Positions 1,585 through 28,899 of a stretch of 39,499 nt of DNA are shown one piece after another. The notes beneath the pieces are model-generated. The model was not told the DNA's origin. It was given only the letters and a program-made list of their open reading frames with translations, and did not search any database. Every line of letters starts with the position of its first letter. Within the stretch, counting starts at the first letter, position 1. Where the stretch lies: positions 1-39,499 of IMG/VR virus record IMGVR_UViG_3300040801_001841; one strand, written 5' to 3'. Both the position numbers and the translations under genes were made by a program. Source of the DNA: a virus.

Positions 1585-2205
1585 ATGGAAGAAACAATAA
1601 CACAATGGGATGTCATAGCTGCTGGCGTTGTAGCTATAATGACAATTATTGGATGGATTAGTTCTAAATTAAAGACTGTCCAAGAATGGCTAAATCGTAA
1701 AGGAGTAGTGACGACTAGACATCGCATAAACGAAATTTATCATCAATTAACTGCTGATAATTCAGGGTCTCTACGTGAAGCTGTAAATAAAACACGTTAT
1801 GATATAGAACGTTTAGGTGCAGCACGTAAAGCTGATTTAAATAGTGATGATTGCCCTTTAGTTGAAACAGATGTAAATGGACAATTAGTCTGGGCTAATG
1901 AAGCTTTTATATGCTTAGTGGGTAGATCACTTCATAGTCTTCGTGGTTCTGGTTGGGTGAATGTAATTGCGGAAGATGAACGAGATTTTGCTGAACATCA
2001 ATGGGCACATATTCTTGAAGCACATCGTACATTAGATGCAATTCATACTTATGTTACACCAGTAGGAAGACAATTTAAAGTAAGGGTATTAGCTACGCCA
2101 ATGCTTTCAGAAGAAAATAAATTTTTTGGGTATCAAGCTAAAATTAAACCGTTGGATCCTAGCTTAATAAGGGGTTGTCGTGAGGAACAGACTAGTGACG
2201 CTTAG
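1585..2205 (+). CDS. Membrane-anchored PAS-domain protein in lysis cassette (possible holin-like role)
   Basis: A 206-residue protein with one N-terminal transmembrane segment (about residues 8-26, VIAAGVVAIMTIIGWISS), a basic amphipathic stretch, a helical linker (35-85), and a PAS-like domain (about 88-195: PLVETDVNGQLVWANEAF, then a GxGW...E motif and the beta-strand block FKVRVLATPML). PAS domains sense ligands, redox state or light, or mediate dimerisation. It lies directly upstream of the M15 endolysin and overlaps it by 26 nt, where a holin would be expected; no other holin candidate is visible nearby. The N-terminus resembles one-TM holins in layout. The PAS call is fairly strong; a lysis-timing role is inference. 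Confidence 0.65.
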   Translation: MEETITQWDVIAAGVVAIMTIIGWISSKLKTVQEWLNRKGVVTTRHRINEIYHQLTADNSGSLREAVNKTRYDIERLGAARKADLNSDDCPLVETDVNGQLVWANEAFICLVGRSLHSLRGSGWVNVIAEDERDFAEHQWAHILEAHRTLDAIHTYVTPVGRQFKVRVLATPMLSEENKFFGYQAKIKPLDPSLIRGCREEQTSDA

Positions 2206-2512
2206 TGCTAAAAGACAGCAATTTGCAAAGATGAAATGTTTGTTAGAGCATTATATTGAATTTCTTGGTCTTCATTACGCAGAAGATCAAGGAAAGCGCT
2301 GCAATGATTGTCCTGTTGGTCACCCACGCAGTACACATAAAGTAGGGTTAGCAATGGATATTTTAATTTATTCTCCTACTAATCATTATCCGCATCCTAA
2401 TGCTAAAACTATATATTCATTATTGCATGATTTTTGGGATTTTATTGGTGGTGCAGAGCGTATTGAAGATGATCTAAATCATTTTAGTTTAGAATGGGAA
2501 GGTGTACGATGA
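2180..2512 (+). CDS. Endolysin, peptidase M15 (D-Ala-D-Ala carboxypeptidase/VanY-like)
   Basis: A 110-residue protein predicted to cleave peptidoglycan stem peptides. The zinc-binding signature of M15 peptidases is visible: STHKVGLAMD at residues 51-60 provides His53 and Asp60, and LNHFSLEW near the C-terminus provides His101. The length fits small single-domain phage M15 endolysins. No signal peptide is present, so export would need a holin-type lesion. The start is GTG inside the upstream PAS gene (26-nt overlap), consistent with translational coupling. It precedes a DUF1353 gene with an ATGA overlap. Confidence 0.8.
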   Translation: MRNRLVTLSAKRQQFAKMKCLLEHYIEFLGLHYAEDQGKRCNDCPVGHPRSTHKVGLAMDILIYSPTNHYPHPNAKTIYSLLHDFWDFIGGAERIEDDLNHFSLEWEGVR

Positions 2513-2919
2513 ATGAGTTTAAATCAGATCCTACATTTAAAATAGGCGGCAGTAGACAATTTCTAATGCAAGAAGATTTGTGGTATCACTCAGATCGTTA
2601 TGGTCTTATGTGTGTGCCAGCAAATCCAGCTAATCCTTTTAGTACTGATTTTGCTAGTATACCACTAACTATTCCTAAATGGTTGCTAAATCCTATAGGA
2701 GGCGGTTGGTTAGATACACATGGTCACAGTAGATTTCCAGCAGTGCTACACGATTATCTTTGCAGAACTGCTAAAAGTTATAAAGAGCGTGTTATAGCTG
2801 ATAAGATATTTCTCGAAGCAATGAAAGCTACTGGTGTAAATGGTATTTCACGTAGACTTATGTATAGTGCTGTACGATTGAATACTGAACGCATGAAGCT
2901 AATGAGGAAATGGAAATGA
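2509..2919 (+). CDS. DUF1353 domain protein
   Basis: A 136-residue DUF1353 family member. The family hallmarks are present: FSTDFASIP followed by a Pro-rich turn, and an RFPAVLHDYLC segment around residue 80-90. DUF1353 proteins occur in many tailed phages near lysis or tail genes and their molecular role is not established. The ATG at 2509 is preferred over an in-frame ATG at 2494 because it gives an ATGA overlap with the endolysin stop and has the purine-rich GGGAAGG upstream. The gene is followed by another overlapping ATGA junction. Confidence 0.75.
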   Translation: MNEFKSDPTFKIGGSRQFLMQEDLWYHSDRYGLMCVPANPANPFSTDFASIPLTIPKWLLNPIGGGWLDTHGHSRFPAVLHDYLCRTAKSYKERVIADKIFLEAMKATGVNGISRRLMYSAVRLNTERMKLMRKWK

Positions 2920-3219: not shown

Positions 3220-3507
3220 ATGAGAGATTACGAAAATTCAGGTAGAGTAATTTTATTTACCATTGTCTTTGTTACTTGGATTACTCTAATGTTTTTATTG
3301 TCAGGATGCGCTACTGTTGAAGTACAAACACCTGATGGCACTAAGATTAAAACTACGACACTTTGGAAAGATGTCAGTAATGCTAGTGCTCAAACTGAAG
3401 ACATGATATTAGAATTGGGCAGTTCAATTAGCGAACAAGAAGCAGGAGCACTCACATTAGTTTGTATTATTAATCCTGCATTGCCTATTTGTCAAATGGA
3501 TGAATAA
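3220..3507 (+). CDS. Small phage lipoprotein (possible outer spanin)
   Basis: A 95-residue predicted lipoprotein. A hydrophobic signal segment (VILFTIVFVTWITLMF) ends in the lipobox LLSGC, after which the mature part is short and polar, starting CATVEVQTPDG. The ATG at 3220 is preceded by GGAG at a 6-nt distance; the longer in-frame extension upstream overlaps the previous gene and lacks support. A lipoprotein after an endolysin recalls Rz1-type outer spanins, but the mature chain is not Pro-rich and no partner inner spanin is obvious, so the spanin idea is weak. The lipoprotein call itself is solid and indicates a diderm host. Confidence 0.65.
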   Translation: MRDYENSGRVILFTIVFVTWITLMFLLSGCATVEVQTPDGTKIKTTTLWKDVSNASAQTEDMILELGSSISEQEAGALTLVCIINPALPICQMDE

Positions 3508-5354
3508 TGCCTAAGATTAATGTATTCAATGGTGGTATGAGGACGGCGCAAGAGCCGCACTTAATTCGTGAAGATGAAAGCGTTGCTTTTGTCAACATGA
3601 AACATGTTAGTGGTATTTTGCGGCCGGCAGTAGAAAAAGCTGCGGCTGTTAGTGGTGCACAGAAATGGGGACATTTCTTCACCATTAACAGTACGTGGTA
3701 TTGGTCTGCTACACCTAAAGATTATGTAGAATTTCAAGAACGTTTGTACATTGGCAATAGAAGTGGCGTTAGTACTAAAATTGTTAATGGCACAGAATAC
3801 AATATGGGTATTGAAGCTCCTACAACTAAACCTACAGTTGTTATGAGTAATGAAACGCCATCGCAAGATCAAATTACTAGGCTTGATCTTGTAGCAGCGT
3901 CTAGTGGTGGAGATATTCCTGGTAATCAAACGCTTAGATATAGAGTAGCTAATGTTAGTTCTGATCCTAAGTATTATCCGTCAGAAGAAGAATTTACAAT
4001 AGCATTAAGTGGCGGTACAACTAATCAAGTTACAATTACTTGTACTGATACTAACTTAGATACAAATATAGCAATCTTCCGCTTCTTTGATAATTATTGG
4101 CGTAAGATCTATGAAGGTCCAGGACCTTCTTATGTTGATAGCACATTTGATATAAGTGCCAATGCTGAATTAGACTCTAGTTACGAAGAGACTGGACTTA
4201 ATGGCGTATATCAATATGCATTGACATTCTTTAATACAGTTGATGGCACTGAATCACCGCCTGTATTATCTGATGAATTTGAAGCCAACTGGGGTACTGC
4301 TAATATAAGTAATCTAGAAGTAGGAACAGATCCTCAAGTTGATGCACGCAGATTATATAGAATTGGTGGAAGCTCTACTGCATTTACATTAGTTGAGCAG
4401 ATAGACAATATAGTTACAACTTATGTAGATGATAATAAAGACGATGAATTAGAAGGTTCATTAATGTCTGCTGAGCAAAACTATCCGCCAGTTGCTAATC
4501 TTAAGTATATGATGGAATCATATGCTATGTTATTTGCGGCTGATGGTGATAAACTCAGGTTTACTCCTATTGGCGAACCTGACTATTGGCCGCAAACTTA
4601 TTTCCTTGACTTCCCTCGCCCGATTATGGGGTTAGCAAAAACACCTATAGGGATATTGGTGTTTAGCGAGTTTGAAACGTGGCTCGTTACTGGGACTGGC
4701 CCTCTCTCCCTAGCCCAACAGTTGCTAACTGGAAGTCAAGGATGTATTAATGGTGATACTGTTGTAAATATTGAAGGTGCATCTCTTTGGGTTAGTACAG
4801 ATGGTGTTTGTATGTCTAATGGTGGTGAAGTAGCTGTCATCACTAGAGATAAATTAGATAAACTTGATTTAAGCCATTCAGTTAATGCTATTATGTATGA
4901 TGAGCGTTATTATTTATTGATGCTTGAATTAGGTACTATACTAATGCTCGACTTAAGTAGAGCTTGCATTATGTATATCAATCATGATGGTATTCGCTCT
5001 CTTAATAAAGCTAATGACATTCTTTACGGATATGTGGATGATGGTGTATTGTATGATCTAGAGGGTGGTACTGATCCACTATTAATGCAATACGGTTCGC
5101 CAGTATATATTGGAAGAGGTTATACAGTACCAAAAACGTATAAAAACTTTTATGTATATAGTGAAGGTGTAGTACAAGTGCTTATTCTGATTGACGGTGA
5201 TGTAATTCAAGATGTTTCATTGCCAATTCAAAAAGGTAACCATCAAGTTAAAATACCTTCTGTAAATACAAGAGGTTATTCACTGCAATTTTTCATATAT
5301 GGTACTGGCACTGTATATGAAGTACAATGGGAGGACGGTAATGCCAACCAGTAA
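3507..5354 (+). CDS. Tail hub/nozzle-like structural protein
   Basis: A 615-residue beta-rich virion protein. The N-terminus (INVFNGGMRTAQEPHLIREDES...) followed by GILRPA is the pattern seen in podoviral tail hub proteins that list a beta-propeller of repeated strands. The central block at about residues 330-450 (MLFAADGDKLRFTPIGEP, GILVFSEFETWLVTGT, GSQGCINGDTVVNIEG and a following STDGV) matches the propeller blades of these proteins. It would form the tail tube end or hub below the portal and adaptor. Genes for the coiled-coil protein, cupin and ejection proteins follow in order. A short stretch around 4600-4740 has noticeably different base and codon use. Specific homology to P22 gp10 or T7 gp12 is not proven. 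Confidence 0.6.
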   Translation: MPKINVFNGGMRTAQEPHLIREDESVAFVNMKHVSGILRPAVEKAAAVSGAQKWGHFFTINSTWYWSATPKDYVEFQERLYIGNRSGVSTKIVNGTEYNMGIEAPTTKPTVVMSNETPSQDQITRLDLVAASSGGDIPGNQTLRYRVANVSSDPKYYPSEEEFTIALSGGTTNQVTITCTDTNLDTNIAIFRFFDNYWRKIYEGPGPSYVDSTFDISANAELDSSYEETGLNGVYQYALTFFNTVDGTESPPVLSDEFEANWGTANISNLEVGTDPQVDARRLYRIGGSSTAFTLVEQIDNIVTTYVDDNKDDELEGSLMSAEQNYPPVANLKYMMESYAMLFAADGDKLRFTPIGEPDYWPQTYFLDFPRPIMGLAKTPIGILVFSEFETWLVTGTGPLSLAQQLLTGSQGCINGDTVVNIEGASLWVSTDGVCMSNGGEVAVITRDKLDKLDLSHSVNAIMYDERYYLLMLELGTILMLDLSRACIMYINHDGIRSLNKANDILYGYVDDGVLYDLEGGTDPLLMQYGSPVYIGRGYTVPKTYKNFYVYSEGVVQVLILIDGDVIQDVSLPIQKGNHQVKIPSVNTRGYSLQFFIYGTGTVYEVQWEDGNANQ

Positions 5355-8490: not shown

Positions 8491-10337
8491 AAACAGATAT
8501 TGAAACTCTAAAAGACAGTTTTTGGCTCGGCTATGACGAATTCGCTAAGTCTAGAGCTGAAGCTGAATTGGCTTGGAATTATTATCATAATCGCCAATGG
8601 ACTGCTGAAGCTATTAATAAGCTAATGGAACGCGGACAGCCTATTGAGACTTTTAATATTGTAAAGCTGTTCAGTCGTATGTTAGTCGGTTACTATTCAA
8701 CCACTATTAATACTGCGGTTGCAGATCCAGTACAGTATAGTGATATGACAACTGCGTCATTACTTACTGATGCCATTAGCCATGTGTTTGAATCTAATCA
8801 TATGGATGTACAGGGTGATGAAATTAAACTTGGAGGTATTATTTCAGGTTTAATGTGTACTATGAATCAGCCGTATAAAACTGGAGCACGTGATAGATTT
8901 GGTAGACCTGTCTATTCAATTAGAATTGGTTATGTACCTGATTATGAGTTAGTTCTTGATCCACTGAGTACAGCCATTGATTATTCAGATGCTCGTTTTC
9001 TACATAGATTTAAGTGGCTACCAGAAGAATCTGTTATTAAGCTGTTTGGCAAAAATAAAATCAATGAGATTGAGGCTAATCATAATCATTTAGCTATTCA
9101 AGAGGCTGATTACGATTATACAGGCCAAGGCAGTTTCTATGGCCGATATAAAGTTTTCAATAACTATCTTATTGTCCATACAGTTATTGAGGATAATAAT
9201 GGTAAGCGATGGTCTATTTATTGGTGTGGAGACACTGAGTTAGATCGTAAAGAAATTACTTATAAACATGTCAAATGGGACTATCGTGTTTGTAAGATTC
9301 AGTCTTCTAGTTATAAAGAATATTATGGTGTATTCCATGAAGTGCTAGAGACTCAGAAAGCTATTAATCAAGCTCTTATTAAGCTACAGCTAATGGCTAA
9401 TACACAAAAAGTATTTGCTGAAAAAACTGCTGTTGAAGATATGGCTAGATTTACTGATGCTGTTAATAGAGTTAATGGCGTTATTCCAGTTAAGACTCTT
9501 AAAGGTATTAGAGTAGAGAATCTATCTGCTGATGCAATAGAACAATATCAAATTATTGATCAAGCATTCAATAGAATTCAGCGCGTGCTTAATATTAACG
9601 ATTCATTTCTTGGTATGGCATTTGCTTCTGATTCTGGTCGTAAAGTTAAACTTCAGCAGAATGCTACAATTATGGCATTGCGTTATTTGACTGTGCGTAT
9701 TGAATCATTCTATAAGCTGTTAGGTCAAGATGTAGCAGGTCTTATTAAACAGTATTATACAGCTGAACAGGTATTGCGTGTAGCTGATGATGTTGTAGGA
9801 CAGCGGTTTATTGCTTTGAATAAGCCTATGGAAAAATGGTCAGGTCAACTTGATCCTAAAGGCCAACCAGTTATGGAGCCTATGTTTGAACAAGTATATG
9901 ATCCTGAAAACGGTAAACCAGAAGTAGATGATGAAGGTCGTTTAGTTTTTGCACCTATTCCAGAACCAGCTACTGAGTTACAATTTAGTGGCCACGATAT
10001 TCGTATTGAAGCCGTAAATTATAATGATGAAGATGAACGGTCTCAGATTATGCTTGAAACTGTAATGTCTGGTCAGATGGGTACGATGATGGCACAAGTT
10101 AATCCAGCTGGATTCTTCCAAATTTCTGCTTTGACATTGAAATCTATGAAAACTAAGTACTCTCCTGAGATTAGTCAAGTCTTTGAACAGACTGCGCAAA
10201 TGTTACAAGGGTCGCCACAAGATGAAGAGGCTGCAGCATATCTGGCAGGACAAAGTGCAAGACCATCAGGTGGTGATGATAGTGCTGGTATTGCTAAAGA
10301 TACTAAACTTCCAACTAATACTAATGAGGCAGCATAA
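8487..10337 (+). CDS. Portal protein, P22-like
   Basis: A 616-residue portal, the dodecameric ring through which DNA enters and leaves the capsid. The N-terminus carries the P22-like portal signature (residues about 10-45: LGYDEFAKSRAEAELAWNYY, HNRQWT), followed by FNIVKLFSRMLVGYYS and the DYELVLDPLS block (about 152-162). The stem-helix region around 280-310 (VLETQKAINQALIKLQLMAN) and the C-terminal helices fit. Length is in the usual range. It lies between ejection genes rather than beside the terminase, so the packaging genes are split into two clusters. Confidence 0.9.
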   Translation: MKTDIETLKDSFWLGYDEFAKSRAEAELAWNYYHNRQWTAEAINKLMERGQPIETFNIVKLFSRMLVGYYSTTINTAVADPVQYSDMTTASLLTDAISHVFESNHMDVQGDEIKLGGIISGLMCTMNQPYKTGARDRFGRPVYSIRIGYVPDYELVLDPLSTAIDYSDARFLHRFKWLPEESVIKLFGKNKINEIEANHNHLAIQEADYDYTGQGSFYGRYKVFNNYLIVHTVIEDNNGKRWSIYWCGDTELDRKEITYKHVKWDYRVCKIQSSSYKEYYGVFHEVLETQKAINQALIKLQLMANTQKVFAEKTAVEDMARFTDAVNRVNGVIPVKTLKGIRVENLSADAIEQYQIIDQAFNRIQRVLNINDSFLGMAFASDSGRKVKLQQNATIMALRYLTVRIESFYKLLGQDVAGLIKQYYTAEQVLRVADDVVGQRFIALNKPMEKWSGQLDPKGQPVMEPMFEQVYDPENGKPEVDDEGRLVFAPIPEPATELQFSGHDIRIEAVNYNDEDERSQIMLETVMSGQMGTMMAQVNPAGFFQISALTLKSMKTKYSPEISQVFEQTAQMLQGSPQDEEAAAYLAGQSARPSGGDDSAGIAKDTKLPTNTNEAA

Positions 10338-13300
10338 TGAGCTTCGGAAGAGTAATTAAAACAGCTTTTGATTGGGTAATAGAGAATCGTTCGCGTCTTG
10401 AAGATGCACTTGAAGCTATGCCAGATCAACAAATGTCTATTGATGACATTAAAAATGGATTAAGGAATCGTGGTGTACAACAGCTTGAAGTGGACCAATC
10501 TGGTGTAGGGCCGTTTCTTGATAAATTGTCTGACCCTAATCAAACTCTTACTCCTAAAGTATTAAAAGAAGAACTACCTAATTTGCGTAATGATGAATAT
10601 AAAGTATCTGAAATTCGTGGTATTGATAATAAAGAATTACTAACTGAACGTAATGCACTTGAGGATGCTTGGTTTAGTTTAGATTTGGGTAATCAAGGTG
10701 ATCTATCTTTAACTAATATAGAGAATTTCATTGATGAACGTAAAGCTCGTATTGATTTAGTACGTAGTGACTATCCAATGAATGAAGCAGAAGGACTCGC
10801 TGAAATATTCGAGACAGAAATTAATCAGGCAGAAGATATAAAACAAAGACTAATTCAAGTTATGCAAGGAGATGATGCTGAAATTTTAACGCATAATTAT
10901 GCTTTTGATCATGATGCGTATAGAGAATATGCTCTTCCAAATACTGATGATGCTTCTTATTTTGTTCGTATATATGAGAATCCTACTGTAGATCGTAAAG
11001 GCATTCCATATGGTGATGCAATGAATCATTGGCCTGGTCAATATGAGAATGGGGTATTCCATGTACGTGGCGATGATGTAGGTGAGAATGTACGTAGACT
11101 ACAAGAAGTACAATCAGATACTCAAAATATTTTAACTCATAATAAAATGCAGACTATTGAGGACTGGCGTATAGGTGGTGATATAGGTAGAAATATACCT
11201 GATGCTGCAGATATAATAGAACAAGCAGCTAGTGGAGGTCCAATTAATGATGCTAGTGCTGAAATAATAAAAGAAACTAATAAAAGCTGGATAGATACTT
11301 TCCATAACTGGGTTGGCATAGAAAACCAATGGGATGATGTTATGGATCCAATAGGCGAATTTCCTAATAGTCTTGAAACAGCTGATATTAATGAAATTCG
11401 TAGGTACATGTTAAACGTAGCTACTAATGGTCAATGGGAATTAGATGCTCCAGTTAGAGTTAAAACTTTACTTAATAGAATATATCACGGATTTACAGTT
11501 AGAGGTGAAGGTATTGATATAGTCAAAAAGTACATTCAAGAAGTAAATCCAGATTTAAATACAGATCAAGTTGATAATTTATACTTAGCTATTAATAATA
11601 CTGTAGATGATTATAGAGAAGCAATAGCTGAAACTCGTGATATGTTTATAACTAAACGAAGAGATAGAGTCAGACTTCGTGTTACGCCTAAAGAACGTCT
11701 TAACCGTATTATGAATGCTGATTTTAGCAGTGTAAAGACAAAGCCAGAATGGCATGGTGAATTTACTAAACAAGAAGCTGCACTGCAAGAAAAAGCTTAT
11801 ACCAATGCGTTTGAAGGCATTAGTGAAAAATATAACATTAATGTAGAAGGTGTAATGGATGGCCTATTAAATTCATCACAGAAAGAGTTAAGAAGAAATT
11901 TACTTGATAGAGTATTAGATAGTGATTACAATAAGCTAGATGCATATGCAGATAGAGTAGATGAGTTATTGCCTAATTCTTTTCAGGCTGGCCAAAGAAT
12001 GAAGCGTGAAATTTATCATGGAACAAGAGAAGGTATTGAATATATTAGAACTATAGATAAAGATTTTCCAGATATTAATGGTGCTGTAGATGAGATAACT
12101 GAAAAATTTAAAGCTAATGTTGAACAAGGCATGAAAGATCTAGAGCCTCTTAAGCAATTTCCTAATGCTAAAGACTATGAGATGCCAGTACCTTATATTA
12201 AACAAGCCTATCAAGAAGAAGTTTTGAGAGCTCTTGAAGAAGGTAAAACAGAAGTATGGCTTACTGTAGACCCTCCTGGTTTTGACAAATTAATTCGCGG
12301 TGACGGTCCACATAGTAGCTATGTCAATGGTAAACATCATAAGCAATTCAAATCTATTGCTAAGAGATTCAATGCAACTGTAGTTGATGAAGACGGTTAT
12401 CTTAAAATGAAATTTCCAGCTAAACTTGCAGCCGGTGGCGGTGGTACATTAGCTATTTCAGCTTATGCAGATACTAATACTGCTGAAGCAGATGCTAAGG
12501 CACTTGAAGCAGGTTTTACACCGGCAGAAATTGCTGCGTTTAAAGAAGAAGAGGGTATTCATGAGTACGAAAATCCTCTTAAAGCTGAACAAGCTATACG
12601 TGAGGGATTTACACCAGAAGAAATTAAAAAGTTTGAGCAAGAAGAATTCATTAGGTCATTGACTGAAGAAGACTTTGCAGAACATCCAGGTGTGGCTACA
12701 GATGTTCCAAATGTAGAAGGAGGTGTTGACTACAAGAAATTGCCACCTGATGTTATTAAGCAAGTCGCAATCGATCTTGAGGTTGATCCTACCACACCTA
12801 AGGGTATTGATGCTGTTTATGAAGAAATCATGTACCGTGATAATCCTGAGCTGCGTAAGATTAATCAAGCAAAGGCAGATAAATGGCGAGTTGACCAAGC
12901 ACGTAATGATCTTGCAGACTTTATTGAATTGAATGATTATTATCAGCCATTTAATTGGACAGCTAGTAGTGTTGGTTTTGCTGTTGCGCATGAATTGTAT
13001 ATAAGTAATAAACAAAGAATTCAGAAAGATATTATTGAAATGGGGCGTGAGCATGGTTATGACTTTATTCTAGGTGAAGGCGATGAAGTCAACGGTTTGC
13101 CAGAAGATCAGTGGTTTGTAAATATTGATGGTAATATTTACGAAGCTAATCCAGGATTCTTTGCTGGTATAGCTCGTGAAGGTGGTGAGATTGGTGGAGC
13201 CGTACAAGGTGGTATTGCTGCAGGTTTATGGATTGATCGCTATACTCGTGGTTGGGAAGCTACTCCATATACACGCCTTATGAAATTTGGCGCAATTACT

Positions 13301-15232
13301 GCTGGTATAACAGCTGGTTCTATGCTTGGCGATCAGATTGATTATGTAACAGCTGCTATGCGCCAACATGAAGAGTACAATTGGGGTGTAGCTCGTGATA
13401 AAGCTATGGGTTCTGCAGAACTTGCTGTGCTTGGTGAAATCGGTGGTTACGCTGTATTAAGAGCTGGTGCTGCTGGTTGGTCAGGTATTCGTAGAGCTTG
13501 GAATCATGTCATGAATGGTAATATTGATGGTGCCTTTGATATGTTAATTAGGTCTCTTGATATTACTGAAGAACAAGCACATGAGATTGTAGGTCATTGG
13601 GAAGATCTTAATCAAAAACAAGCTCCAACTTTATCTGACAAAAAAGCATGGTGGAATATAACTAAGTATACTTCAGATAAAGATAAAGAAAAGGCTATTG
13701 CTGTAATTCCTGGCAGTCAAGCAGGTGGCCACAATATTGCAGAAACTCTAGCTGAAAAGAATCCTAGGGCTTCTGCAGCTATTCGTGCTGAAACTAATCA
13801 ACGTGCTAAATCACTTGTGCGTGCAACAGGTGATGTAATAACCGATGAAGAGTTAGGTAAACTATCAGATCTTGATCAAGTTAGGGCGATTAAAAGAGCA
13901 CGTAGAGCTACTGCTACTGATATTGTAGAAAGTATCAATACTTATCGTAAAGACGTTGGTAATTTCTATGAAGTAATAAAACAGCAAGGTGGTGATTTAG
14001 TTCCTACAGGCTATACTTGGGATATGGATACTGTAGCAATTGAGCCATTAACTAAAGATCTTATTAGCCGTATCTATAAAGATGGTAAGCGTAAGACTGC
14101 TCGTAATATGCTTAAGCGTATTGATAAGCTTACAGTTACTCGTACCTTCCCAGATCTTATTGAATTGCGTCAATTAATCAATGAAGTACGTAGTGTAGGT
14201 AAGCCTAGTCGTGCTGAAATAGAAGCGTTTCAAAACATCATAGATACTATTGATGAAGAAATAGCTGATGCGTCTACTAAAATGGGTAAAGACGGTGCTC
14301 AATGGCATAGAGACTGGCTTAATGCTAAAGCTGATTACAGTGAGATGAAACGGCTTACAACTAATGCGCTAGGTAAGATTCTTGAACGTCCTGGTGTTAG
14401 TGAAACTGTTGTAGCTAAAGCTCTTGTTAAATATGGTACTGCACTAGATGGCACATACTCTGATCTAGTTAAGAAATTACCGTTAGATGTTCAGCCTAAA
14501 GTTGAGAACCTTGTTATTGATGAATTAGTTGAGCAGTTTACTGACGGTTCTATCACTCAGTTCCAAGCGACTAATTTCCCTGAACTGTCAATAGCATTAG
14601 ACGCTTATGATTTCAGATGGCCGCAAGCTAAAGCACTTAAAGGTGTTGTAGATAAGTTTGCAAAAGTGTACCAAAATGACATAGCTTTGTCTTATGTTAC
14701 TGGCGGTATTACTACTACTAAATTTGCGCACTATCTTACTACTGATCCTGTTGTTCGTGCACAATTTGAAATAGCTAGTGGTGTCTTTAATCAAATTAAG
14801 GTTTTGATGGGCGGTTCTAAAGGTGATGCCGCTGCACTTATTAATGCTAGTGCTAAACTACTTGAGGATCCTCTTAATCCTAAAAATGTTCAGCAAGCTA
14901 TTGATGCAATTGAAGGCAACGCTCAGTTAGAAGCGGCAATTAAGAAACTGCAAACTGAAACAGCTGCAGCGCGACATAATCCTGGACCTGGCGGTACAAT
15001 TAAAGTTCGTCTTTATGAGGATGGTAAAGGCAACCTTTATACACAGGCAGGTGACGGTCGTCAAGCTGTAGATACAACACCTATGCATCGCATTACAAGT
15101 GAAGACGTAGCAAAGAAAGTTGCTAGGACTGACGATCTAAGCAATCTCGATAACGTGCAAACTGCTAGGCTCATTGAAGCAGGTTATATAATGATTGGCT
15201 TAAATGACGGTACTGTTATTAAATTGCTTTAA
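10337..15232 (+). CDS. Giant ejection/internal virion protein with split LPD-like domain
   Basis: A 1631-residue protein, the largest in the window, starting TAATG-coupled to the portal stop. Around residues 195-262 it resembles large-polyvalent-protein associated domains (YREYALPNTDD, YFVRIYENPTVDRKGIPYGD, VRRLQEVQSDTQN), and a matching C-terminal half seems to recur near 620-700 (YQEEVLRALEEGKTEVWLTV; KHHKQFKSIAKRFNATVV). Next come two tandem helical repeats (EAGFTPAEIAAFKEEE and REGFTPEEIKKFEQEE, about 718-775), a glycine-rich hydrophobic section (about 945-1050) and long helices. It would form the trans-periplasmic DNA conduit. No lytic transglycosylase motif was recognised. The 3' end runs 33 nt into the convergent nuclease gene. 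Confidence 0.75.
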   Translation: MSFGRVIKTAFDWVIENRSRLEDALEAMPDQQMSIDDIKNGLRNRGVQQLEVDQSGVGPFLDKLSDPNQTLTPKVLKEELPNLRNDEYKVSEIRGIDNKELLTERNALEDAWFSLDLGNQGDLSLTNIENFIDERKARIDLVRSDYPMNEAEGLAEIFETEINQAEDIKQRLIQVMQGDDAEILTHNYAFDHDAYREYALPNTDDASYFVRIYENPTVDRKGIPYGDAMNHWPGQYENGVFHVRGDDVGENVRRLQEVQSDTQNILTHNKMQTIEDWRIGGDIGRNIPDAADIIEQAASGGPINDASAEIIKETNKSWIDTFHNWVGIENQWDDVMDPIGEFPNSLETADINEIRRYMLNVATNGQWELDAPVRVKTLLNRIYHGFTVRGEGIDIVKKYIQEVNPDLNTDQVDNLYLAINNTVDDYREAIAETRDMFITKRRDRVRLRVTPKERLNRIMNADFSSVKTKPEWHGEFTKQEAALQEKAYTNAFEGISEKYNINVEGVMDGLLNSSQKELRRNLLDRVLDSDYNKLDAYADRVDELLPNSFQAGQRMKREIYHGTREGIEYIRTIDKDFPDINGAVDEITEKFKANVEQGMKDLEPLKQFPNAKDYEMPVPYIKQAYQEEVLRALEEGKTEVWLTVDPPGFDKLIRGDGPHSSYVNGKHHKQFKSIAKRFNATVVDEDGYLKMKFPAKLAAGGGGTLAISAYADTNTAEADAKALEAGFTPAEIAAFKEEEGIHEYENPLKAEQAIREGFTPEEIKKFEQEEFIRSLTEEDFAEHPGVATDVPNVEGGVDYKKLPPDVIKQVAIDLEVDPTTPKGIDAVYEEIMYRDNPELRKINQAKADKWRVDQARNDLADFIELNDYYQPFNWTASSVGFAVAHELYISNKQRIQKDIIEMGREHGYDFILGEGDEVNGLPEDQWFVNIDGNIYEANPGFFAGIAREGGEIGGAVQGGIAAGLWIDRYTRGWEATPYTRLMKFGAITAGITAGSMLGDQIDYVTAAMRQHEEYNWGVARDKAMGSAELAVLGEIGGYAVLRAGAAGWSGIRRAWNHVMNGNIDGAFDMLIRSLDITEEQAHEIVGHWEDLNQKQAPTLSDKKAWWNITKYTSDKDKEKAIAVIPGSQAGGHNIAETLAEKNPRASAAIRAETNQRAKSLVRATGDVITDEELGKLSDLDQVRAIKRARRATATDIVESINTYRKDVGNFYEVIKQQGGDLVPTGYTWDMDTVAIEPLTKDLISRIYKDGKRKTARNMLKRIDKLTVTRTFPDLIELRQLINEVRSVGKPSRAEIEAFQNIIDTIDEEIADASTKMGKDGAQWHRDWLNAKADYSEMKRLTTNALGKILERPGVSETVVAKALVKYGTALDGTYSDLVKKLPLDVQPKVENLVIDELVEQFTDGSITQFQATNFPELSIALDAYDFRWPQAKALKGVVDKFAKVYQNDIALSYVTGGITTTKFAHYLTTDPVVRAQFEIASGVFNQIKVLMGGSKGDAAALINASAKLLEDPLNPKNVQQAIDAIEGNAQLEAAIKKLQTETAAARHNPGPGGTIKVRLYEDGKGNLYTQAGDGRQAVDTTPMHRITSEDVAKKVARTDDLSNLDNVQTARLIEAGYIMIGLNDGTVIKLL

Positions 15233-28306: not shown

Positions 28307-28672
28307 TTATTCCGGTATATAGAAACCGAGCTCTCTCAATCTACACTCAATCCCATAAGGATTGCGACTAGTTATTGCTGCGATATCTGCAATACCTTCA
28401 CGCTGATCTCGCCAGAGATGAACAACAATATCTTCCTCTTCAGGAGTCCACCTGTGTCCTACTCTACTTGAATGACAATTAAGAAGGGCATTAAACAACA
28501 GTGTATGTTCTATCTTCAACTCACCAAGCTTTCTAGCTTGCTCTACTGCTTTAACCTCAACAACATACATATCATTATCTAACTTTCGTGCCAATCTTCT
28601 AGCTTCTTTCAGTGCTTCTCTGTTATCTTCATGCTCAACTAATTGTCCTTTCTTTACTACCATGTAAGTCAT
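28307..28672 (-). CDS. Myb/SANT-like DNA-binding protein
   Basis: A 121-residue protein. The C-terminal half (about residues 73-118) has HRWTPEEEDIVVHLWRDQRE, then GIADIAAITSRNPYGIECRL, the Trp-spaced three-helix pattern of Myb/SANT-like domains used by phages for DNA binding. The N-terminal half is charged and helical (EALKEARRLARKLDN). It may regulate early transcription or accompany another early protein. GGAG precedes the ATG, which overlaps the upstream lipoprotein stop by ATGA. Last gene of a leftward early operon. Confidence 0.65.
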   Translation of the reverse strand: MTYMVVKKGQLVEHEDNREALKEARRLARKLDNDMYVVEVKAVEQARKLGELKIEHTLLFNALLNCHSSRVGHRWTPEEEDIVVHLWRDQREGIADIAAITSRNPYGIECRLRELGFYIPE

Positions 28673-28899
28673 TTGATTTCTCCTTTTCGATCTTCAATAA
28701 CATAACAACTACCTAACCAGTAATCGTCATGACTTTTACGCAGTTTATAGTAAGATTGCGCAATCGGTGATGTGTCCAAAGCCTTGCATTCACGGGTGAA
28801 CTCTCTTAGTTCATCCATATCATTTGTATGCAAGACCAGGACAGGATCATTGCAACCTGCTAGCAGCAGAGATGCAGTCATCAATAGTTGCTTCTTCAT
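28669..28899 (-). CDS. Small early lipoprotein
   Basis: A 76-residue predicted lipoprotein. The signal MKKQLLMTASLLLAGC has a clear lipobox with the lipidated Cys at residue 16. The mature part is short and polar (NDPVLVLHTNDMDELREF...). An early lipoprotein exported to the host envelope is typical of superinfection-exclusion or receptor-blocking proteins (as T5 Llp), but no receptor is known here. It begins 53 nt inside the upstream gene and is ATGA-coupled to the DNA-binding protein downstream. Confidence 0.65.
   Translation of the reverse strand: MKKQLLMTASLLLAGCNDPVLVLHTNDMDELREFTRECKALDTSPIAQSYYKLRKSHDDYWLGSCYVIEDRKGEIK

Follow-up and report, generated by a model that had tools for sequence, protein, structure and literature searches.

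Holin timing is usually viewed as an internal clock that depends on holin accumulation and the energy state of the membrane. Few other inputs to this timing are described, e.g., superinfection in the lysis inhibition of phage T4. A phage-encoded sensor of a different kind is VqmA of phage VP882, which is reportedly a PAS-domain quorum-sensing receptor for a small molecule. VqmA is a transcription factor governing the choice between lysis and lysogeny, whereas the protein considered here is a putative membrane protein of a lysis cassette.

LysF1b of F1 mycobacteriophages has one transmembrane (TM) helix in N-out/C-in orientation and is required for normal lysis; without its partner LysF1a it still allows early triggering of lysis by energy poisons (PMC13056207). 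The Mu releasin gp25, the product of a late gene, also has one TM helix in N-out/C-in orientation, followed by a cytoplasmic C-terminal domain, and releases a SAR endolysin with lysines in its cytoplasmic tail (PMC9239132). The class III holin T of phage T4 consists of one TM helix and a globular domain, which is periplasmic (PMC11413866).

We analyzed a stretch of viral DNA of 39,499 nucleotides (the window) that encodes a protein, P0001, with one N-terminal TM helix, a linker and a PAS domain (TM-PAS). This protein resembles LysF1b (DUF2746, PF10874) in the single N-terminal TM helix, the predicted N-out/C-in topology, the position in a lysis cassette and the cytoplasmic C-terminal domain. 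However, LysF1b is only about 124 aa long and has a charged helical tail instead of a globular PAS domain. With Mu gp25 (DUF2730) it shares one TM helix, the N-out/C-in orientation and the character of a membrane-tethered cytoplasmic protein encoded near an endolysin gene, but gp25 has 99 aa and serves a SAR endolysin, whereas the endolysin of the window has no SAR segment. T4 holin T has the same combination of one TM helix and a globular domain, on the periplasmic rather than the predicted cytoplasmic side; a T4-holin-like topology was dropped on the positive-inside rule. None of 22 records, the window included, matched PF10874 at E ≤ 1 (the control also had no match over the family cut-off), and PF10805 (DUF2730) was absent among the families matched at E ≤ 0.01 by 21 members of our alignment. 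In the open-licence papers that we searched, no PAS domain was linked with a holin or a lysis cassette. TM-PAS-like sequences are deposited in BFVD, yet as far as we found they have not been interpreted.

We lean slightly towards the view that TM-PAS is a one-TM, N-out/C-in membrane protein of the lysis cassette with an added cytoplasmic PAS regulator.

The TM-PAS gene and its surroundings in the window

The window is a 39.5-kb virus contig encoding a portal, an internal virion protein, a DNA polymerase, a primase, a ligase and a thymidylate synthase; the phage is a podovirus. Its distant relatives, found through phrog_511, are Kafunavirus, PH1 and VPMS1 (32–38% identity). The features of the TM-PAS region are listed in Table 1.

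Table 1. Features of the TM-PAS region (positions in the window)
Feature	Position	Strand	Basis or remark
TM-linker-PAS protein P0001	1585..2205	+	206 aa from ATG
Single TM helix, residues 10-26	1612..1662	+	Hydropathy; predicted N-out/C-in
Degenerate linker motif ADNSGSLREAVN, residues 57-68	1753..1788	+	Family consensus PNGGSSLRDAVN
PAS domain, residues 85-182	1837..2130	+	Pfam, AF2 model, Foldseek
M15 endolysin, 105 aa	2195..2512	+	Probable start GTG 2195 after GAGGA 2183-2187; listed ORF starts at GTG 2180
DUF1353 protein	2512..2919	+	In the sibling L007 likewise between M15 and phrog_511 (shared DLASIP-type motif)
Lipoprotein; hydrophobic N-terminal segment, LSGC lipobox	3220..3507	+	PHROG Rz-like at E=0.21 only
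phrog_511 internal virion protein	3507..5354	+	Anchor for comparing the slot across relatives

An earlier note on this DNA had described P0001 as a one-TM N-terminus joined to a PAS-like domain at the holin position, overlapping the endolysin gene, and the two-part architecture holds. The hydropathy peak coincides with the TM helix (17-residue mean 2.31); no K or R precedes it and four follow within 15 residues. Two Pfam models exceed their gathering scores at residues 85–180, namely PAS_4 (E=1.3e-6, 29.1 bits vs the cut-off of 23.1) and PAS (E=7.9e-6, 26.3 bits vs 22.6). Structure prediction gave the expected fold: in the AF2 model of P0001, built with 20 family members, the PAS core has pLDDT 97–98, and Foldseek aligns it with heme, LOV and Aer (FAD-binding) PAS structures. 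P0001 belongs in the PAS domain superfamily by both the Pfam scores and the predicted fold. Another family member, from record L042, reached pLDDT 51 when modeled on its own.

Near full-length structural neighbors of P0001 in BFVD are named “PAS domain, uncultured Caudovirales phage”. Two Proteus-phage holins, one of them named class III, appear there at low rank and without significance (E=0.05–0.09). Another structural neighbor, R9ZZL0, was tied to gp108 of Cellulophaga phage phi19:1 (L169:5703-6425) via its length only (240 aa); the gp108 gene lies in the late region, five genes ahead of a lysozyme.

The M15 protein downstream of TM-PAS had no match in Pfam or PHROGs. Its relatives found by tblastn are annotated as endolysins in Vibrio phages and Pseudomonas phage 119X, and the zinc-binding and catalytic motifs STHKVGLAMD and DLNH are kept in two relatives, L007 and L002. 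The window M15 has neither a TM nor a SAR segment (maximum hydropathy 0.38). The overlap between the two genes is real; judging from the start codons, it probably covers 11 nt instead of the 26 nt implied by the listed ORF, and the probable ribosome-binding site of M15 would lie inside the TM-PAS gene.

The observation that no other holin is visible is also retained for this IMG/VR contig, which need not be complete. The only other convincing TM segment of the late region belongs to the lipoprotein at 3220–3507, and the other TM ORFs compared with PHROGs gave no holin match. A separate holin was not found in this possibly incomplete record. The lipoprotein itself is a possible outer-membrane spanin subunit. 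A second small lipoprotein-like ORF of 76 aa with an LLAGC lipobox (28672-28899, minus strand) lies among small minus-strand genes; its top PHROG match is Rz-like, at E=0.18 only. Directly upstream of TM-PAS, positions 829-1557 encode a Laminin-G/ConA-like lectin protein (Pfam Laminin_G_3, 4.9e-19), likely a tail appendage. Adjoining the portal gene, positions 10337-15232 encode a protein of 1,631 aa that matches phrog_21759 (function unknown) in its C-terminal part at E=4.9e-116.

Relatives of P0001 among viral proteins

Searches with single proteins did not reveal relatives. A tblastn search with P0001 in 50,697 phage records returned nothing at E ≤ 0.01 and only unrelated genes at E ≤ 10; three further family members likewise had no match in tblastn, and a scan of IMG/VR with P0001 found no relatives. 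We therefore described the PAS core by a pattern at the DNA level, N-x7-G-x7-GxGW-x6-D[DE]-x7-W. The pattern occurs at 36 viral loci. About 30 of these have a compact layout, i.e., one N-terminal TM helix, a linker, one C-terminal PAS domain and no other part. With the additions from a more relaxed scan and from one based on the alignment, the tree comprised 38 rows. Thus about 38 distinct proteins of viral contigs have the TM-PAS architecture; this is a pattern-found sample, skewed by the patterns towards this PAS subtype. Their identity to P0001 is merely 12–25%, and P0001 lies on a long, unplaced branch of the tree.

As a control, bacterial and archaeal genomes were scanned with the pattern in a slightly stricter form. 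Among the matches listed, 119 of 120 were not short TM-PAS proteins, and the one short protein (L124) has no TM helix. Plasmid matches were rejected as family members; there the PAS regions lie inside proteins of about 760 and 1,000 aa. The residues that follow the TM helix are more basic than those that precede it in all 24 members tested, which predicts the N-out/C-in orientation by the positive-inside rule, and the PAS domains of TM-PAS proteins are accordingly predicted to be cytoplasmic.

Among the 44 phrog_511 loci, no TM-PAS gene was found other than that of the window. The family is scattered and apparently undescribed.

Gene position and the N-terminal module

In the clade of the window the genes are arranged as tail protein – X – M15 – ... 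– phrog_511. In L178 and L179, X is a 111-aa coiled-coil-like protein with one TM helix that overlaps M15. In L007, X is a one-TM protein of 140 aa, and a RebB-like gene stands between it and M15; the RebB-type-like protein (L007:2277-2789, 170 aa) was recognized by eye only. Since the scanned relatives have no PAS domain and the slot proteins of L178/L179 and L007 do not match the profile of the N-terminal module, TM-PAS looks like an unrelated replacement in the same slot.

TM-PAS genes adjoin lysis genes in other records as well. A GH24 lysozyme with an N-terminal SAR-like segment follows TM-PAS in L041/L045, L042, L171, L172 and L289, with overlaps of 4 nt in L041, L042 and L289, and Rz-like genes are present in several of these records. 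A phrog_7 lysozyme adjoins TM-PAS in all four records where it was found. In L275 an M15-type endolysin gene precedes TM-PAS by 340 nt, and a 161-aa TM protein is encoded on the other side of the endolysin. In the T7-like L286 and L259, TM-PAS lies between tail proteins and terS/terL, which we take to be the position of T7 gene 17.5. The assignment of TM-PAS to the holin position is well supported, both by the one-TM proteins in the slot of the nearest relatives and by the lysozyme and Rz genes elsewhere. Lysis slots are perhaps occupied by TM-PAS in four lineages: beside M15, in the SAR-lysozyme/Rz clade, beside another endolysin and at the gene-17.5 position.

The lysis-slot label, given to nine tree rows, requires 4 changes on the tree vs a shuffled mean of 8.2, and none of 500 shuffles was that low, where the label set was chosen after the contexts had been viewed and near relatives inflate the test. 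Only two of the four changes are forced by well-supported branches. The gene following TM-PAS in L175 is lysozyme-like by eye, has no Pfam or PHROG match and was counted only as probable. NlpC/P60 neighbors in L016 and L031 were not counted as signs of a lysis context, as PHROGs names them minor tail proteins. GH108 genes are far from TM-PAS (3.2 kb in L026 and 47 kb in L029). In total, 29 of the 38 rows are not beside any recognized lysis gene, and one clade follows ribonucleotide reductase genes, as judged by eye (L241, L245, L252, L253, L257, L258 and L263). The family is thus not uniformly linked to lysis.

A second line of evidence comes from the N-terminal half. Most aligned members carry a linker motif P-N-G-G-x-S-L-[RK]-D, which is degenerate in P0001. 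Residues 1–90 of P0001 scored 26.4 bits against a held-out profile of the N-terminal halves of the other members (the best of 300 shuffles scored 8.7). The half with the TM helix and the PNGGSSLRD motif also occurs without PAS in cultured actinophages. A family of unknown function, phrog_9869, includes these stand-alone proteins and, at E ≤ 0.01, 12 of 15 TM-PAS records other than that of the window; P0001 is below its threshold, and its only match is with the profile derived from its own relatives. The proteins of the phrog_9869 and actinophage group (mu1/6 gp52, P1312 gp040, Sonali gp22, TurkishDelight gp37) are like TM-PAS in the TM helix, the PN.G.SLRDAVNRIE-type linker and the N-out/C-in orientation, but have no PAS domain.

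In four actinophages the stand-alone module is one or two genes away from an annotated endolysin. Gp040 of Thermobifida phage P1312 is directly ahead of an amidase gene, Sonali gp22 is directly ahead of endolysin gp23 and holin gp24, and TurkishDelight gp37 and mu1/6 gp52 are downstream of endolysin and holin. Three of the four phages also carry an annotated holin. RefSeq gives the name holin to the homologues of the module in LiSara and Wheelbite. In Glutamicibacter BV-113 and Dulem virus 32 its neighbors have no lysis annotation. Judging from these sequence matches and gene neighborhoods, the N-terminal half of TM-PAS probably corresponds to a lysis-cassette module of actinophages.

Possible action of TM-PAS in lysis

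The lysis-cassette reading draws on the computed architecture, PAS fold, predicted topology and gene position, on the shared module and on recurrence in lysis slots. From these we infer hole formation or triggering of lysis, as well as the sensing of a signal and what that signal might be. The N-out/C-in helix with its PNGGSSLRD-type linker would be the lysis module, building up in the inner membrane. At a set time it would open the inner membrane, or aid its opening, for the cytoplasmic M15 endolysin. As M15 has no membrane anchor, the TM-PAS protein of the window would have to act either as the holin or together with one that we do not see. The PAS domain, fused at the cytoplasmic end and probably replacing the tail of the stand-alone relatives, would most likely bind a small molecule or dimerize, and either event could shift the triggering threshold. 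Most simply, PAS would thus regulate triggering, whether by binding a ligand or by dimerizing, and may link lysis timing to the state of the cell, as the earlier note had suggested.

PAS domains commonly dimerize, and the domain might therefore be only an oligomerization scaffold that replaces a coiled coil and senses nothing. A scaffold is compatible with a role in lysis, so our estimate for it is not exclusive of the reading above; we think it rather unlikely. The residues of the PAS domain are in its favor. When the alignment was read by eye, no conserved cofactor ligand residue was identified, a shared heme-type histidine was not apparent and the invariant residues resembled those of the general PAS fold. 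The position of the LOV reactive cysteine appears to be taken by the tryptophan of GxGW, a residue required by the search pattern, and light sensing via a LOV cysteine was dropped for this reason. On the other hand, the fold is kept across very divergent members (12–25% identity to P0001).

TM-PAS could also be a membrane-tethered regulator of lysis, i.e., an antiholin or a releasin-like accessory, with the hole made by another protein or the endolysin released otherwise. In the SAR lysozymes beside TM-PAS in the GH24 clade, the cytoplasmic N-tails are rich in K/R; in Mu, this feature renders gp22 dependent on gp25. Releasin-like action is therefore plausible in those phages. Mu gp25 has the same layout as TM-PAS (PMC9239132), and an annotated holin accompanies the stand-alone module in three actinophages. 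However, M15 of the window has no SAR or TM segment, so freeing a tethered endolysin cannot be the task of TM-PAS there. Moreover, a second holin is not visible in the window, and for LysF1b, which has a similar topology, there is genetic evidence of holin function (PMC13056207). As a general account of TM-PAS we find such a regulator doubtful.

It is still more improbable that TM-PAS is a phage sensor or a host-takeover protein unrelated to lysis that stands beside lysis genes by chance in some phages: the many members away from identified lysis genes and the clade behind ribonucleotide reductase would agree with this, but the one-TM proteins in the sibling slot, the N-terminal module common to lysis-cassette proteins and the 4-nt overlaps with SAR lysozymes speak against it.

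Taking the lysis-cassette reading further, we tentatively propose, as a possibility short of an even chance, a family of sensor-gated lysis proteins. In such proteins a one-TM holin- or releasin-like module would be joined to a cytoplasmic PAS domain that responds to a ligand or to a metabolic or redox signal and so determines when lysis occurs, and several phage groups that are unrelated would have gained or kept the combination. If a sensory domain does sit on a lysis-cassette membrane protein, the timing of lysis would be connected directly, and in a way open to test, with a signal in the cytoplasm.

A likely place in lysis also emerges for the actinophage membrane proteins that carry the PNGGSSLRD module alone, several of which are labeled hypothetical. 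One of them, P1312 gp040 (L290:2710-3153), is annotated as “sensory protein kinase CreC”. It has 147 aa and consists merely of the TM helix and the linker, and the name CreC looks wrong.
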